This document shows, one piece after another, positions 17,013-37,077 of a stretch of DNA of 37,176 nucleotides. A model generated the notes under the pieces. The model was not told the origin of the DNA, searched no databases, and was given only the letters and a program-made list of their open reading frames with translations. The stretch comes from Pseudomonadota bacterium. GTDB lineage: Bacteria > Desulfobacterota > Desulfobulbia > Desulfobulbales > Desulfocapsaceae. The position numbers were made by a program, and so were the translations under genes. Location: assembly GCA_018817385.1 (NCBI GenBank), contig JAHIUA010000069.1, forward strand, positions 1-37,176. The letters are read 5' to 3'. The number at the start of each line of letters is the position of its first letter. Position 1 is the first letter of the stretch.

Positions 17013-17357
17013 CCGCTCTCCAGCAGTGCTGAACTGGACAAGGGGATCACCGCAAGCCCTCTTCCTTGACAAATCCCCCCTTTTTAGGAAAAAAGACAAA
17101 TTTCTTCTCTTCCCTTGTCTCCGATCACACTCCATCCCGAAATACGGATTGAACCTATTAGCCGGCGAAGGCATCTTCTAATCGACATATTTTCCTCTCA
17201 CCCTAATTTTTTTTATTCTTGCCAAAAGCATTACCCTCCAGCATATTCAAGCTTTTTCTTCAAATTATCGCAGCGAACACCACGCTGTAGCATTGCTTAT
17301 CGCCAATCCTTGTTATACAATATATTTAAGATAGATTTCAGTTCAATGAATACAAGA

Positions 17358-17450
17358 AAAAGCCTAACCTGTCGTGAGACAGGGACGGAAAGCCACGGAT
17401 CTGCAGCAGATAGCCGGGCTACCTTGGAATGAGGTAGTTCGGCTTTTTTT
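17358..17450 (+). ncRNA. Cyclic-di-GMP-I (GEMM-I) riboswitch with terminator
   Basis: Aptamer features are all present: CCTGTC-GTGA-GACAGG with a GNRA tetraloop, the conserved GGGACGGAAAGCCACGG, the receptor-side stem ATCTG-CAG-CAGAT, and AGCCGGG. An ungapped alignment with the Vc2 aptamer keeps the ligand-contacting G20. Its G21-C46 pair appears swapped to C-G, a compensatory change. The 3' part of the aptamer also forms the left arm of a 13-bp terminator (17412-17424 with 17432-17444) and seven T's. Ligand binding would therefore affect termination. The first downstream gene starts at 18122. Confidence 0.85.
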
Positions 17451-29635: not shown

Positions 29636-29727
29636 CGTAAGGAAATTATCCTTCCAGATTGATTTTTTGAGATATATTTTTGTAATGTTGCAACAATAGC
29701 AATCTGGTGTCCAATCAAGGAGATAAA

Positions 29728-31587
29728 ATGAAAAATAAATTATCGGCTTTGTGCCTTGCCAATGTGTTATTTTTTAGCACTGCCATAATGGCTTCCGACA
29801 AAGTCGTCATTATTCCTATGGGGGCTACCACTAATATTGAAGCCTCAATAAACTGGCAGGGAGAATGGGCGGATGGCGTACCCTACGCTAACGGGGACGC
29901 AGTTCAGTACCAGGGAAGCAGCTATCTTTGTGTTGCCAACCATATATCTTCTCCTGTTGATTCTCCACCCCATGCCTATTGGGATTTAGTGGCCTCTGTC
30001 GGAGCCGAGGGGGGCGAAGGTCCGGCCGGTCCGAAAGGTGATACTGGCGATACCGGCTCTCAGGGGCCAGCAGGTGTTCAGGGTGACGCAGGCGATACCG
30101 GTCCTCAGGGACCAGCAGGTGTTCAGGGTGACACAGGCGATACCGGTCCTCAGGGCATCAAAGGTGATACTGGCGATATTGGTCCTCAGGGTCCTGCCGG
30201 AGCTGATGGTATAACTGGCCCCGCCGGTGTTGATGGTGTTGATGGTGTTGATGGCATCAACTGCTGGGATTTGAACGGTAATGGCGCATGTGATCTAAAG
30301 AGTGAGGATGTGGACAAAAATGGTTTTTGCACTGTACTAGACTGCCAAGGACCAGAGGGTCCAGCCGGCCCCGTTGCCGGTACAGATGGGCAACTTGTCT
30401 ATAACGATAACGGCAGCGCAGCTGGTTCTGAAATATATTATGATAAGAGTACAGACAATGTCGGAATCGGTGTAGTTCCGACCTCATCTTATCAGCTTAG
30501 CGTGACGGGTGACGTTACAGACTCAGCTACCGGTCTGTTTGAAAATATAAGCAATTCAAGTGTTGGCTGGGCATTATATGGTAATGCCTTTGGCAACGGA
30601 GGTACCACTCACTATGGCGTATATGGGACGGCAAGTGGGGCCACTACTAACTATGCGGGGTATTTCAAGGGAGACACGGTTATCACCGGAAATGCTGCCA
30701 TAGGCACAACACCATTGACCTCCACAAGACTGAAAGTTGAAGCCACTACTGAAAACATCGGCACTTCATTGGCCGGTTTTTATAACAATCCAAATAACTC
30801 CACAGGTTCCACGAGTATCGGCTTGCAATCTGAAGTAAAAGGCGTTGGAGGTGTCCATCATTACAGTATATCAGGTGAAGCCAGCGGAGCAGAAACTGAT
30901 AATATTGGAGGAAAGTTTAATGCCAATGGTGACAGTACAAATTACAATATGGGTGCGGCCGGCGATGCCAGTGGCTCACAAGGCCTAAATATCGGTGGAA
31001 ACTTTTCAGCAAACTCCGCAGTAGGTATTCAAAATCGTGGTGTTGCTGGATATGCAAGCAGTGGTTCAGAAAATTATGGTGGTTATTTTGAGTCGTTTTA
31101 TGCCGGATCCTCAACTGATGGTTCAGTAGGTTACGGTGCTAAGGGCAAAGCCACTGGAGGTTATTCTGCTTTCGGTGTTTATGGCGAAGCAAGCGATGCC
31201 GTGTACTCTTATGGTGTCTATGGAATATCTTCTGCTTCTAATGGTATCGGTGTTTATGGACAAAGTTCCTTCCGTGCCGGCTATTTTGCTGGAGATGTTT
31301 ATGTAACAAAGGATGTTTCAGCCCTTTCATTCACAGACAGAACCCCATACCCCAAAGACATACAGACTGCCTACGATGCGGTCCTCTCCATGCAGAGGCT
31401 TCCTGAGGGCGAATACGATGCGTTTGACAAAGAAAACCAGCTTGACCATTCTACTTTGCATGAATTTGTAAAATCTAAAGACGGTGAACACAGAGATCTT
31501 TCTGCCACCGTCTCAGCCCAAAATGAAGTAATCAAAGACCTGATCAAGAGGATAGCGCAGCTGGAAGCTCAACAGGCTGCACAATAA
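29728..31587 (+). CDS. Exported collagen-like protein with carbohydrate-binding-like module
   Basis: The 619-residue product has a signal peptide (LSALCLANVLFFSTAIMA). Residues about 36-80 (WQGEWADGVPYANGDAVQYQ, then YLCVANHISSP, YWDL) match the CBM5/12-type chitin-binding pattern W...Y..GD.V.Y.G..Y.C. About 25 Gly-X-Y triplets follow (GPAGPKGDTGDTG...), interrupted by a calcium-loop-like DLNGNGACDLKSEDVDKNG. DGQLVYNDNGSAAGSEIYYD and a long Gly/Ser/Ala-rich beta region then resemble tail-fibre or adhesin stalks. The end is a coiled coil (IKDLIKRIAQLEAQQAAQ), preceded by SFTDRTPYPKDIQTAYDAVL, suggestive of a trimerising domain. AAGGAG precedes ATG 29728. It likely forms a trimeric surface fibre. 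Confidence 0.8.
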   Translation: MKNKLSALCLANVLFFSTAIMASDKVVIIPMGATTNIEASINWQGEWADGVPYANGDAVQYQGSSYLCVANHISSPVDSPPHAYWDLVASVGAEGGEGPAGPKGDTGDTGSQGPAGVQGDAGDTGPQGPAGVQGDTGDTGPQGIKGDTGDIGPQGPAGADGITGPAGVDGVDGVDGINCWDLNGNGACDLKSEDVDKNGFCTVLDCQGPEGPAGPVAGTDGQLVYNDNGSAAGSEIYYDKSTDNVGIGVVPTSSYQLSVTGDVTDSATGLFENISNSSVGWALYGNAFGNGGTTHYGVYGTASGATTNYAGYFKGDTVITGNAAIGTTPLTSTRLKVEATTENIGTSLAGFYNNPNNSTGSTSIGLQSEVKGVGGVHHYSISGEASGAETDNIGGKFNANGDSTNYNMGAAGDASGSQGLNIGGNFSANSAVGIQNRGVAGYASSGSENYGGYFESFYAGSSTDGSVGYGAKGKATGGYSAFGVYGEASDAVYSYGVYGISSASNGIGVYGQSSFRAGYFAGDVYVTKDVSALSFTDRTPYPKDIQTAYDAVLSMQRLPEGEYDAFDKENQLDHSTLHEFVKSKDGEHRDLSATVSAQNEVIKDLIKRIAQLEAQQAAQ

Positions 31588-32000: not shown

Positions 32001-32146
32001 CCCTTTTTTCTTTGTGATAATTACTATTTTGTAGGAATGAACGTTGGAATTATTTCAAAATATGATGTGAAAATAGGTAAATATACCCATTTTCAAATTA
32101 ATCAATCTGTGGTTAACTTAAAATATAGTTAATTTTAAATTCAATT

Positions 32147-32239
32147 AAAAGCCAAACTTTGAGCGATCAAAGGACGGAAAGCTACGGGACTATACCAGTC
32201 AGCCGGGTTGCAAATTTAATGCAGCCCGGCTTTTTTTTT
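32147..32239 (+). ncRNA. Cyclic-di-GMP-I (GEMM-I) riboswitch with terminator
   Basis: Features match the copy at 17358: CTTTGA-GCGA-TCAAAG with a GNRA loop, GGACGGAAAGCTACGGG, GACT-ATACC-AGTC and AGCCGGG. The G20 equivalent is retained and the C21-G46 swap is the same. The aptamer's 3' end forms the left arm of an 11-bp terminator (32201-32211 with 32221-32231) followed by nine T's. The next gene starts 682 bases further on. Confidence 0.85.
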
Positions 32240-32920: not shown

Positions 32921-35900
32921 ATGAAGATTCAGACTGTTACTCCCACAACAGTAACTGCGGTTCTGGTTTGCCTACTCGCTTTCGGAGGTGGCGCTATCGA
33001 AGCCATGGGTGAAGAAGGCGCCGGCAACAATTTGTCCTATCCGGCTGTATTGATAGACGGGCCTTCCATTGACCCACACTTTACCATTCAGGGTGAAGTA
33101 CTTGGTGAGACCTATTCGTATGGCTGCGAAGGCAGTGAAATGTACGATGTATTCACCTATCCCAATACCTCTTGTGTCGATGACCTGGCAACTCCGACAA
33201 TTTATTATACTGCGGCGGAATGTACAGCGCCAGGCGGCAAATGCGAAGGCAAATCGGTTACTCGCATGTACTGGCAGAAGGAGGAAGACAACACGTGGAG
33301 CTCTCAGGTTACAGGTGTGCCCACTACAGGCAGCGCTCCCGTCAATGTCCGCTACGTGGATTGGGGCGACAGCATCGAAGTGGTAAACTGGAACGATTAC
33401 TCAGTGCTGCGTGTGGAAACGCAACCTTTTATCGATCTGGGCCAGGATGCGTTGATTGAACTCCCTCCAGGTACACCACAAACCCAGACAGGGTTCCAGA
33501 TGTGGCATGTATCCGGCCAGGGGATTACCGAGCAGTGGGGCGCACGGGTTGAGGAAGATGCTGGAGTGAGGGGGCTGCCCTATGTTTATCAGTCACCTAA
33601 TGCCATTATTAACGCGGGGACCGCTGACCTCTATCTCACCAAGTTGTTTCCTGTGGATGACGATGATCCTGACTACAAATGCCCTAAAATGGGGGGAGAC
33701 CAACCTCCTGCGTATCCTGCAGACTATCCATTTGACCCTGCTTGGATAGCAGGTGAAGGGTGGTCGGGTTCCTGCAACCTCCCAGTTGTGCCGTACACGC
33801 TCGAACAAAATGTCTCTGGGAAGTTTGTCCATGGGTACAACTGGCGGATGCGCGATCTTCCAGATCACTTAGACACGTGTGTGGATCAGGCATGGCATAA
33901 AACCGGATGGTGGCGCCTGACATATGTCCCTAACGGGGACAACTCAAAGATGTTGTTCACCGACAACACAGTGACGGGCCCCCCGGTGATACCGCCTGCT
34001 ATACCAACTGCTTTGTCGACTTTTTTGTCTCTCTCAGAGGAAAGCGACGAAGATGACGATGAGGCATCGTTATATACCCCGGTCGTTGATGTTGCCAATA
34101 ACCTGACCTATATCGATATCTGTATCGTCGAGAAAAAAGATACTGATCCAGATGGATATTATGTAGTTTCGAGCGTAAACGTAACAGGAAGCGGAGCAAT
34201 TTTCCCGGAAGGATATCAATGGGTTGAAAAAGACGAAACTCTCTCGTTTGTCCTGGATCCGGCTACCGGTTATTATTTGGGTGAAATAGAAGGGACCTGT
34301 CCAGCAGGTGCGCCGCCGAGTGACAATGGTGACGGTACCTGGGATTACACGACTGGCAGTATTAAAAGTGACTGTACGGTTATTGCGAATTTCTATGGAT
34401 ATAGTCCGGTTAGCCTGACGGTAAACACGATAGGACCCGGTACGGTAGTAAGCAATCCCTCAGGTATTGACTGTGGGGCCCTATGCATAGGATCCTATCC
34501 TGCTAATACGGAAGTAACCCTGACCGCCACAGCGGATACAGACTACGTCTTTGATGGCTGGAGTGGAGATTGTACGGACGACGGAACGGTGGAGACCAAG
34601 GTGACCGTGGATACGGCAAAAATCTGCACAGCCACCTTTACAGAGCCATCATATACCATCACTGCCTCAGCGTTGCCCACTGCCGGGGGGGAAGTAATCT
34701 GCGCCCCGAATCCTGTTGACCCTGGTTCCACCTCAACCTGTACAATCACCACGAATCCGCACTATACCCTTGATACTGATATAGAGGGCACCTGCGGCGG
34801 TGAGCTTGCGCTTGACGGAATTACCTATACGACAGACGAAATCATAGATGACTGTACGGTCGTAGCGAATTTTGTCGCTGACCAGTTCAACCTGACGGTG
34901 ACCCTTGATGGAGCAGGCACGGTAACCAGCAGTCCTGCAGGTATTGACTGCGGAACTAACTGCATCGAAGCCTATGATTACAATACGGTGGTGAGTCTGA
35001 CCGTCGAAGCGGATGCAGACTCCGTCTTTACTGGATGGAGCGGGGATGCGGACTGCTTGGACGGAACGGTGACCATGGATGAGGCAAAGAGCTGCACGGC
35101 GACCTTTACAGAGGCACACATCATCACTGCTATCGCATCGCCCACTGCCGGGGGAGGAGTAAACTGCGCCCCGAATCCTGTTCCCGATAGTTCCACCTCA
35201 ACCTGTACAATCAGCCCAAATCCGTACTATACCATTAATACAGTAACGGGGACCTGTCCATATGTTGCGGATCCGAGTGACAATGGTGATGGTACCTGGG
35301 ATTACACTACTGGCAGTATTGAAACTGACTGTACAGTCGTAGCGAATTTTGACATAGACCAGTTCAGCCTGACGGTGGACACTGATGGCCCCGGTACGGT
35401 AAGCAGCAGTCCCTCAGGTATTGCTTGCCCGGGCGACTGCAGCGAAGGCTATGATGCTAATACGGAAGTGACTCTGACCGCCACACCGGATGCAGGCTCA
35501 GGTTTTGACGGATGGAGCGGGGATGCGGACTGCTCGGACGGCGTGGTGACCATGGATGCGGCTAAGAACTGCACAGCCACCTTTACAGAGCTATTATACA
35601 CCATCACCGCCTCCGCATTGCCAGTTGACGGAGGAGGAGTAAGCTGCGCCCCCAATCCTGTGCCTGACAGTTCCGCCTCAACCTGTACAGTCACTCCAAA
35701 TCCCTACTATTCCCTTGAGAGCGTAACGGGTACCTGCGGCGGCACGCTTGTCGGAAGTCTCTATACGACAGACGCAATCAGGGCAGATTGTACGGTCGTT
35801 GCGAACTTTGTCACTGACCGGTTCAGGCTGACGGTGAACACTGTCGGGACAGGCTCGGTAACCAGTCTCCCCACAGGTATTGACTGCGGGAGCGACTGCA

Positions 35901-36331
35901 GCGAAGAGTATGATTACAATACGGTAGTGAACCTGACCACCACTGCAGATACAGGATCCGTCTTTAGCGGCTGGAGCGGGGATGCGGACTGCTTGGACGG
36001 CATGGTGAGCATGGATGCGGCAAAGAACTGCACGGCCACCTTTACAGAGCTATTATACACCATCACCACCTCCGCATTGCCAGTTGACGGAGGAGGAGTA
36101 AGCTGCTCCCCCAATCCTGTGCCTGACAGTTCCACCTCAACCTGTACAGTCAGTACGAATCCCTCCTATACCCTTAGTAGCGTAACGAGCACCTGCGGTG
36201 GTATGCTTGTCGGAGGTATCTATACGACAGACGTAATCAGCGCAGACTGTTCGATCATTGCAACTTTTGAGGGGGGATTCCCCTGGAATATTTACCTGCC
36301 GGCCATACTGAATCAGAACCAGAGACAGTAA
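32921..36331 (+). CDS. Large exported protein with InlB-type B repeats
   Basis: A 1136-residue protein with a signal peptide (about 1-30). A unique Cys-containing domain (about 35-370) that I do not recognise comes first. Then about 730 residues of alternating repeats follow. Type A (LTVNT.GPGTV.S.PSGIDCG then GWSGDADC and CTATFTE) is the divergent InlB B-repeat and occurs four times. Type B (YTITASALP..GGGV.CAPNP, then STCT, TGTCGG, DCTVVANF) occurs four times plus a leading variant. Each unit has paired cysteines, probably disulfides. The end FPWNIYLPAILNQNQRQ shares FPW-x3-LPAI with the propeller protein at 18122. AGGAGG supports the start. A riboswitch lies upstream. It is probably a c-di-GMP-regulated surface adhesin. 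Confidence 0.85.
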   Translation: MKIQTVTPTTVTAVLVCLLAFGGGAIEAMGEEGAGNNLSYPAVLIDGPSIDPHFTIQGEVLGETYSYGCEGSEMYDVFTYPNTSCVDDLATPTIYYTAAECTAPGGKCEGKSVTRMYWQKEEDNTWSSQVTGVPTTGSAPVNVRYVDWGDSIEVVNWNDYSVLRVETQPFIDLGQDALIELPPGTPQTQTGFQMWHVSGQGITEQWGARVEEDAGVRGLPYVYQSPNAIINAGTADLYLTKLFPVDDDDPDYKCPKMGGDQPPAYPADYPFDPAWIAGEGWSGSCNLPVVPYTLEQNVSGKFVHGYNWRMRDLPDHLDTCVDQAWHKTGWWRLTYVPNGDNSKMLFTDNTVTGPPVIPPAIPTALSTFLSLSEESDEDDDEASLYTPVVDVANNLTYIDICIVEKKDTDPDGYYVVSSVNVTGSGAIFPEGYQWVEKDETLSFVLDPATGYYLGEIEGTCPAGAPPSDNGDGTWDYTTGSIKSDCTVIANFYGYSPVSLTVNTIGPGTVVSNPSGIDCGALCIGSYPANTEVTLTATADTDYVFDGWSGDCTDDGTVETKVTVDTAKICTATFTEPSYTITASALPTAGGEVICAPNPVDPGSTSTCTITTNPHYTLDTDIEGTCGGELALDGITYTTDEIIDDCTVVANFVADQFNLTVTLDGAGTVTSSPAGIDCGTNCIEAYDYNTVVSLTVEADADSVFTGWSGDADCLDGTVTMDEAKSCTATFTEAHIITAIASPTAGGGVNCAPNPVPDSSTSTCTISPNPYYTINTVTGTCPYVADPSDNGDGTWDYTTGSIETDCTVVANFDIDQFSLTVDTDGPGTVSSSPSGIACPGDCSEGYDANTEVTLTATPDAGSGFDGWSGDADCSDGVVTMDAAKNCTATFTELLYTITASALPVDGGGVSCAPNPVPDSSASTCTVTPNPYYSLESVTGTCGGTLVGSLYTTDAIRADCTVVANFVTDRFRLTVNTVGTGSVTSLPTGIDCGSDCSEEYDYNTVVNLTTTADTGSVFSGWSGDADCLDGMVSMDAAKNCTATFTELLYTITTSALPVDGGGVSCSPNPVPDSSTSTCTVSTNPSYTLSSVTSTCGGMLVGGIYTTDVISADCSIIATFEGGFPWNIYLPAILNQNQRQ

Positions 36332-36530: not shown

Positions 36531-36723
36531 CCAGCTGAAAATGATATGTAAGGTTCTGTTGAAAGAATACTCCTCAAAAGGAATTGGGATTCAATAAGCA
36601 GGATTTGGGGGGCAGACTCGTTCTGTCTTTATGGATAATAGAGTGGTGTGATAAAGGTATCAACGAGTTATTGAAACGCTTTTTTTGCCGGGTATTTTTT
36701 TGCGTTAAAGAGAAGAGGAAAAA

Positions 36724-37077
36724 ATGAAGACCTTTGCCGATGAAGCATACGATCTTTTACGGAAGGTGCCTAAAGGGCGGGTAACGACCTATAAAGAAAT
36801 TGCCCATGCCTTGGGAACCAGAGCATATCGCGGGGTCGGGCAGGCCATGCGAAAAAACCCCTATGCACCGGAGGTTCCATGACACCGGGTTGTTGCCACA
36901 TCCGGTCGGATTGGGGGATTTCAAGGAAAGACATCGGGAACAGCTATAGAGAAAAAAATAAAAATGCTCAAAGACGAAGGGATCGAGTTCCGCGAAGGAA
37001 ACGTAATGAATTTTGAAGAAGTTCTTTTTCGATTTCCTAGGAGTCTGTCGGATTTAGAGAATCGTAGCGAAAATTAG
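36724..37077 (+). CDS. MGMT-family protein with Sec (UGA) at the methyl-acceptor position
   Basis: Read with UGA as selenocysteine, the 117-residue product is a full C-terminal alkyltransferase domain: FADEAYDLLRKVPKGRVTTY, KEIAHALGTRAYRGVGQAMR, KNPYAPEVP-U-HRVV, GRIGGFQGK, then KIKMLKDEGIEF. Methylguanine-DNA methyltransferases use the Cys of PCHRV to take the alkyl group from O6-alkylguanine; here that codon is UGA (36880-36882, residue 53). Everything around it is intact: the Arg finger region (RAYRGVGQAMRKNP), HRVV and the GG turn. The N-terminal domain of Ada/Ogt is absent, as in small MGMT-like proteins. The ATG has GAGAAGAGG upstream. A SECIS-like hairpin follows the UGA. Alternatives are a point-mutated pseudogene or a sequencing error. 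Confidence 0.8.
36896..36914 (+). promoter_or_regulatory. Candidate bacterial SECIS element
   Basis: CCA-C-ATCC (36896-36903, one bulged C) pairs with GGAT-TGG (36908-36914) around a GGTC loop. The loop begins 21 bases after the UGA and opens with GG. The GGUC loop resembles the apical loop of the E. coli fdhF SECIS. Confidence 0.65.

Follow-up and report, generated by a model that had tools for sequence, protein, structure and literature searches.

A short alkyltransferase-family gene with a predicted selenocysteine acceptor

Proteins of the MGMT family are spent after one reaction. Since selenium is costly, its use at the acceptor position would be odd, and selenocysteine (Sec) should bring some gain, such as a higher rate or a lower pKa. 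This puzzle is raised by the last gene of the window (the whole stretch of DNA analysed here, 37,176 nucleotides), at 36724-37077. Is its in-frame UGA read as Sec and, if so, what does the protein do? From comparison of sequences, we consider the product likely to be a short O6-alkylguanine-DNA alkyltransferase of one domain, with a Sec acceptor. It would be an unusual selenoprotein, with alkyl transfer, not redox, as the expected chemistry. The features concerned are as follows.

36714 to 36719, forward strand: AGAGGA, picked out by eye as a probable Shine-Dalgarno-like sequence, 4 nucleotides upstream of the ATG
36724 to 37077, forward strand: predicted Sec-MGMT frame, 117 residues with UGA as Sec; TAG stop at 37075-37077
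36880 to 36882, forward strand: in-frame UGA (predicted Sec 53), aligned with the alkyl-accepting residue of PCHRV
36896 to 36914, forward strand: SECIS-like hairpin of 3 base pairs, a bulged C (36899) and 4 base pairs, with a GGUC loop at 36904-36907
37036 to 37077, forward strand: C-terminal tail (residues 105-117) and stop, both derived from the repeat and replacing the stop of relatives such as L042
37037 to 37176, forward strand: MITE-like repeat with terminal inverted repeats, the first 140 bp of about 168 bp, cut by the contig end

The UGA codon and its conservation among relatives

The readthrough product has the form MKTFADEAYDLL...NPYAPEVP-U-HRVVATSGRIGGF... and the frame contains a single TGA, at codon 53, in the context PUHRVV. 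Residues 4-87 match PF01035 (Pfam, E 6.1e-26). The protein also exceeds the cut-off of the NCBIfam ogt model (TIGR00589; 69.6 versus 46.4 bits). In three PDB alignments, the UGA coincides with the Cys of PCHRV in solved MGMTs. Hence, a sequence-only reading, in which UGA replaces the acceptor Cys of an MGMT domain, holds for the assembled sequence, where TGA occupies 36880-36882. An in-frame UGA matched to a conserved Cys of homologues is a pattern that marks bacterial selenoproteins, and the window gene shows it.

Relatives were drawn from 96 relatives, 257 genomes of the same order and 395 of the same phylum (these sets overlap), and from one contig scan. The scan used two patterns, one with PCHR, and was limited to the best 80 of 547 matches; Sec and Cys counts there are not frequencies. 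We found at least 17 UGA-bearing loci. Removing duplicates L004, L122, and L129 from 17 Sec-class loci left 14 non-redundant genes, including that of the window (L001). The strict motif was lacking at five loci: L009, which has a deletion, L059 and L096, which show PCHR, L061, and L084. The 13 other Sec genes are 72.6-90.4% identical to the window gene. In all 14, TGA is at codon 53 and no further stop occurs through codon 104.

Could the UGA be a real stop, or the gene be decaying? A repeat has inserted in the 3' end of the window gene and one relative has suffered a deletion. This is locus L009, on the minus strand of genome G065, where an apparent 78-nucleotide in-frame deletion, either a real loss or an assembly error, removes the NP motif, the acceptor, and the SECIS. 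Conversely, pairwise dN/dS among the 14 Sec genes is 0.08 for codons 1-52 and 0.21 for codons 54-104. Taken with the shared TGA and the open frame beyond it, this makes a stop or decay highly improbable and bears out the earlier view that simple decay is not the cause. Unrelated stops with decayed 3' ends, which would have spoken for decay, are absent from the 13 other Sec genes; it is L009 that has lost its acceptor region. Genome G065 also has another, stop-free PF01035 gene.

The 3' end of the window gene differs from those of relatives. In 12 of 13 comparisons, homology to other Sec genes stops at 37034-37040; in the remaining one, with L130, it stops at 36991. The repeat starts at 37037. 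Hence, residues 105-117 derive from the repeat. Relative L042 ends TTC TCC TAG; in the window, the repeat is located at the corresponding CTAG, and the frame enters it for 13 residues. At least 40 places in the genome hold copies with 97-100% identity, and several copies lie at contig ends; the repeat explains why this contig ends at 37176. A whole copy (L139) is about 168 bp long with ends CTAGGAGTCTGTCGGA and TCCGACAGGCTCCTAG. The proposal of an intact C-terminal half thus stands for residues 54-104, but not for the last 13 residues.

The window also carries other features. The gene at 32921-36331 encodes a protein of 1136 residues, six stretches of which are InlB-B-type repeats (PF18998); within it, 35509-35809 and 35968-36267 form a 301-bp direct repeat of 90% identity. 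Rfam matches identify two c-di-GMP-I riboswitches, at 17353-17427 and 32141-32215, the second upstream of the InlB-repeat protein gene. The protein encoded at 29707-31587 has collagen triple-helix repeats and a carbohydrate-binding module.

Counting Sec and Cys forms in the order, as proposed from sequence alone, gave matches in 15 of 257 genomes (E <= 1e-15). Four are Sec forms (G000, the window genome, with G051, G075, and G218), one has its acceptor deleted, and ten are Cys forms, all confined to one family. In the phylum sample, 12 of 395 genomes match: four with Sec (G000, G075, G457, and G499) and eight with Cys. The window's genus is represented by 19 further genomes, none of which has a match at E <= 1e-15. 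Among the matches listed, Sec-bearing records include MAGs labelled Desulfobacterales, Desulfobacteraceae, Desulfurivibrio, and Desulfosarcina, with two labelled Deltaproteobacteria and one merely Proteobacteria. The Desulfurivibrio gene (L043) is identical to that of G218, from the same order as the window. Two further loci, G637:C96:718-819 and G638:C170:3640-3747, match PF01035 weakly and in part, under the family cut-off, and contain an in-frame TGA; these are possibly fragments of another Sec copy.

A midpoint-rooted tree was built from 90 proteins (14 Sec and 76 Cys) and 101 columns, excluding L009, L059, L061, L084, L096, L002, L004, L122, L124, L129, and Cys rows with E >= 1e-20. Sec forms occupy one side of a branch with SH-aLRT 89, below the starred level. 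With this rooting, they nest among Cys forms of DPANN archaea, Patescibacteria, and others. A single change between Sec and Cys would suffice for this tree, in which 101 columns give little resolution. The nearest Cys form of the same phylum (L131) has the SGRI residues in common with Sec forms, five of the seven hairpin pairs described below, and a GGGC loop. It may be a sister of the Sec forms or a return from Sec to Cys.

The gene stands alone and has a patchy distribution; it has probably moved between lineages. We considered a mobile cassette, suggested by the flanks of L043, L044, and L046 (from about -110 to +435 or +516), and rejected it, since block ends vary by pair. Among ORFs of at least 110 residues, L052 and L130 alone clearly have a neighbour in common (96%). 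Other links are the gene's own antisense shadow and, among L046, L048, and L049, weak matches of 25-29%. Carriage by phages or plasmids was also rejected, all 24 phage and 281 plasmid matching records being below 60% identity. In IMG/VR, neither the protein nor a UGA-specific DNA pattern gave a match.

The SECIS-like hairpin and selenocysteine machinery

The sequence-only reading described a 7-bp hairpin with a GGUC loop 21 nucleotides past the UGA. The loop start, at 36904, agrees with this, and we add one bulged C. Written out, the hairpin is CCA[C]AUCC-GGUC-GGAUUGG, with seven pairs and one bulge. The SECIS of E. coli fdhF has a like plan, with a bulged U and a GGUC loop, one codon closer to the UGA.

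Note that single-sequence folding was rejected as support for the hairpin. The 19-mer has a z-score of -0.76, so its stability is not unusual versus shuffles. For the 46-nucleotide stretch starting at the UGA, z is +1.25 and 185 of 200 shuffles are at least equally stable. The minimum-energy fold of this stretch is a different, competing hairpin, which a ribosome covering the first bases after the UGA would be expected to hinder. In L050, the minimum-energy fold lacks the bulge. Since folding gave no excess stability, the case was made by comparing homologues.

All seven pairs and the GGUC loop are kept in 14 of 14 Sec genes. Conversely, seven pairs occur in none of 105 Cys loci and six pairs in two of them (duplicates included); among 39 Cys homologues with at least 50% identity, the best pairing is five of seven. 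Codons 60-62 read TCC GGT CGG in every one of the 14 Sec genes, although each of the amino acids encoded (Ser, Gly, and Arg) has a choice of four to six codons. Of 93 six-codon windows scanned for synonymous change (mean 0.25; windows containing codon 53 excluded), codons 58-63 alone have none. Covariation is less informative. The 14 Sec genes give 11 distinct hairpin rows, which are nearly identical, and 39 of 500 shuffles equalled the covariation measures. Only a single hairpin pair has changed on both sides, from A-U to U-G in L050 and G-U in L003.

In the Cys set, position 60 is Asp in 26 of 39 proteins and Ser is commonest at position 62 (13 of 39). The Sec genes have Ser and Arg at these positions. 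Hence, the RNA signal may shape the protein loop. The available text of PMC1088965 describes the bacterial SECIS as a hairpin just past the UGA, with a guanosine in its small apical loop; the conserved hairpin and its GGUC loop conform to that description.

The window genome encodes SelA, SelB, tRNA-Sec (anticodon tca), and two copies of SelD (G000:C3:26672-27613 and G000:C54:26403-27329), with an in-frame TGA in each selD gene. Lack of such machinery would have counted against Sec, and selA, selB, selC, and selD are all present. In G051, tRNA-Sec is over the Rfam cut-off, without an ARAGORN call. Note that the genome of the nearest Cys form of the same phylum (G301) also has selA. Hence, the presence of machinery alone does not decide between Sec and Cys.

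Might the UGA instead be read as Trp, by a near-cognate tRNA? The product would contain PWHRV, an ATL-like signature that a distant relative (L013) does encode. However, codon 53 is TGG in none of the 14 Sec genes, the remaining motifs are MGMT-like, and both hairpin and Sec machinery are present. We regard reading as Trp as extremely improbable. Because the UGA, the hairpin, and codons 58-63 are conserved, and the genome has Sec machinery, the gene very probably encodes a selenoprotein and is not decaying. These observations, with purifying selection past the UGA, favour the original assignment of Sec to the acceptor site.

Predicted function of the protein

Residues Y23, R36, N45, P52, H54, R55, and E85 are conserved in all 14 Sec proteins, and NP and GG motifs are present in each. 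The MGMT active-site set (Asn, His, Arg, Tyr, arginine finger, and Glu) is thus complete, with Sec as acceptor; we take the Tyr and Arg residues to have the active-site roles given to them in MGMTs. By motif alignment, N45, H54, and E85 correspond to N137, H146, and E172 of human AGT, as numbered in the available text of PMC4150793. An AlphaFold model of the protein, lettered with Cys, has a pLDDT of 93.7. The top Foldseek match is the S. pombe ATL, followed by archaeal and human MGMTs; an E. coli MGMT structure also matched. The N-terminal domain of classical MGMTs is absent.

Hence the protein might bind lesions or sense damage in the manner of an alkyltransferase-like (ATL) protein, not act as a repair enzyme, given its single-domain size, the top Foldseek match, and the ordinary Cys MGMT also present in the window's host (209 residues, G000:C93). 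Yet ATLs have Trp or another non-nucleophile at the acceptor position and no NP motif. The aligned ATL has Trp and lacks both NP and GG; the 14 Sec forms have neither ATL trait and keep N45, H54, and E85. A strong nucleophile would also be pointless in a pure binder, and five hosts have no other PF01035 match. An ATL role is therefore unlikely.

It is quite unlikely that the MGMT scaffold houses a redox selenoenzyme, acting as a peroxidase or thiol oxidoreductase. The idea has precedent. In its available text, PMC2673044 puts 6-O-methylguanine-DNA methylase forward as a possible thiol oxidoreductase, in part on the basis of Cys/Sec pairs, and oxidoreductases are most of the selenoproteins of known function, according to that of PMC2398784. 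However, no resolving Cys is apparent: up to residue 104, 13 of 14 Sec proteins are free of Cys and the remaining one has a single Cys. Conservation of the MGMT active site also argues against a redox role.

Most likely, we predict, the protein is a suicide O6-alkylguanine transferase that uses a selenolate. It would bind DNA and flip out O6-alkylguanine. In a single step, Sec53, a selenolate at neutral pH, would take over the alkyl group; the resulting Se-alkyl protein would be dead, just as Cys MGMT is once its sulphur has been alkylated. The sequence-only reading raised a faster, reusable, or non-suicide acceptor, for and against which the present comparisons do not speak. We consider it very unlikely that the acceptor is reusable. 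In that case, the Se-alkyl adduct would undergo cleavage or onward transfer, with thiols or the methyl-transfer chemistry of these anaerobes as possible agents, making a multiple-turnover MGMT rather than a suicide protein.

The predicted suicide transferase would act beside a Cys MGMT in the window's host and as the only MGMT-domain protein matched in some others. In 5 of 14 Sec-bearing genomes, the Sec form is the sole PF01035 match at E <= 0.001 (G075, G457, and G499, with completeness of 98-100%, and G640 and G643, with none stated). These hosts offer a natural test of why Sec is used in preference to Cys. The other nine genomes have further PF01035 matches, some partial or broken. Hence, repair need not depend on the Sec form there.

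Comparison with known systems

The sequence-only reading supposed that Sec-MGMT relatives might already be on selenoprotein lists, and they are. The available texts of PMC2398784, PMC9312934, and PMC13188914 list a Sec-containing methylated-DNA-protein-cysteine methyltransferase (COG0350/PF01035). Its exemplar is ABB14497.1, which PMC9312934 attributes to Zhang and Gladyshev 2007, and Table 2 of PMC2398784 counts one Sec sequence and 2,879 Cys sequences in GOS data. Like the protein predicted from the window, this family is PF01035 with Sec; ABB14497.1 was compared by its table entry alone. Hence, the kind of protein is already known. Whereas the published tables, as available, give one exemplar or one sequence, we group 14 non-redundant genes and identify genomes where the Sec form is the sole match. 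Our literature search found no protein, 75Se, or activity experiments on natural Sec-MGMT, and MGMT terms are absent from PMC12013277, PMC8318568, and PMC1794560.

The Cys MGMT/Ogt proteins (human AGT, the C-terminal part of E. coli Ada, and archaeal forms) have the same fold, acceptor position, and active-site residues. The window protein differs in having predicted Sec for Cys and no N-terminal domain. ATL1 is likewise a single domain of about 105 residues with this fold, but differs by the Trp acceptor and missing NP motif of the aligned ATL. The closest functional parallel to our prediction is man-made. According to the available text of PMC4150793, human AGT carrying Sec145, made as a Sec/Ser mixture, gave E. 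coli protection against MNNG, which the Ser145 form failed to do. The N137A change abolished activity in the Cys form but did not do so in the Sec form. In 14 of 14 cases, natural Sec proteins retain the equivalent Asn, N45. The engineered protein has the Sec acceptor predicted here and is active in an E. coli repair selection; unlike the window gene, it is decoded at UAG and has no SECIS.
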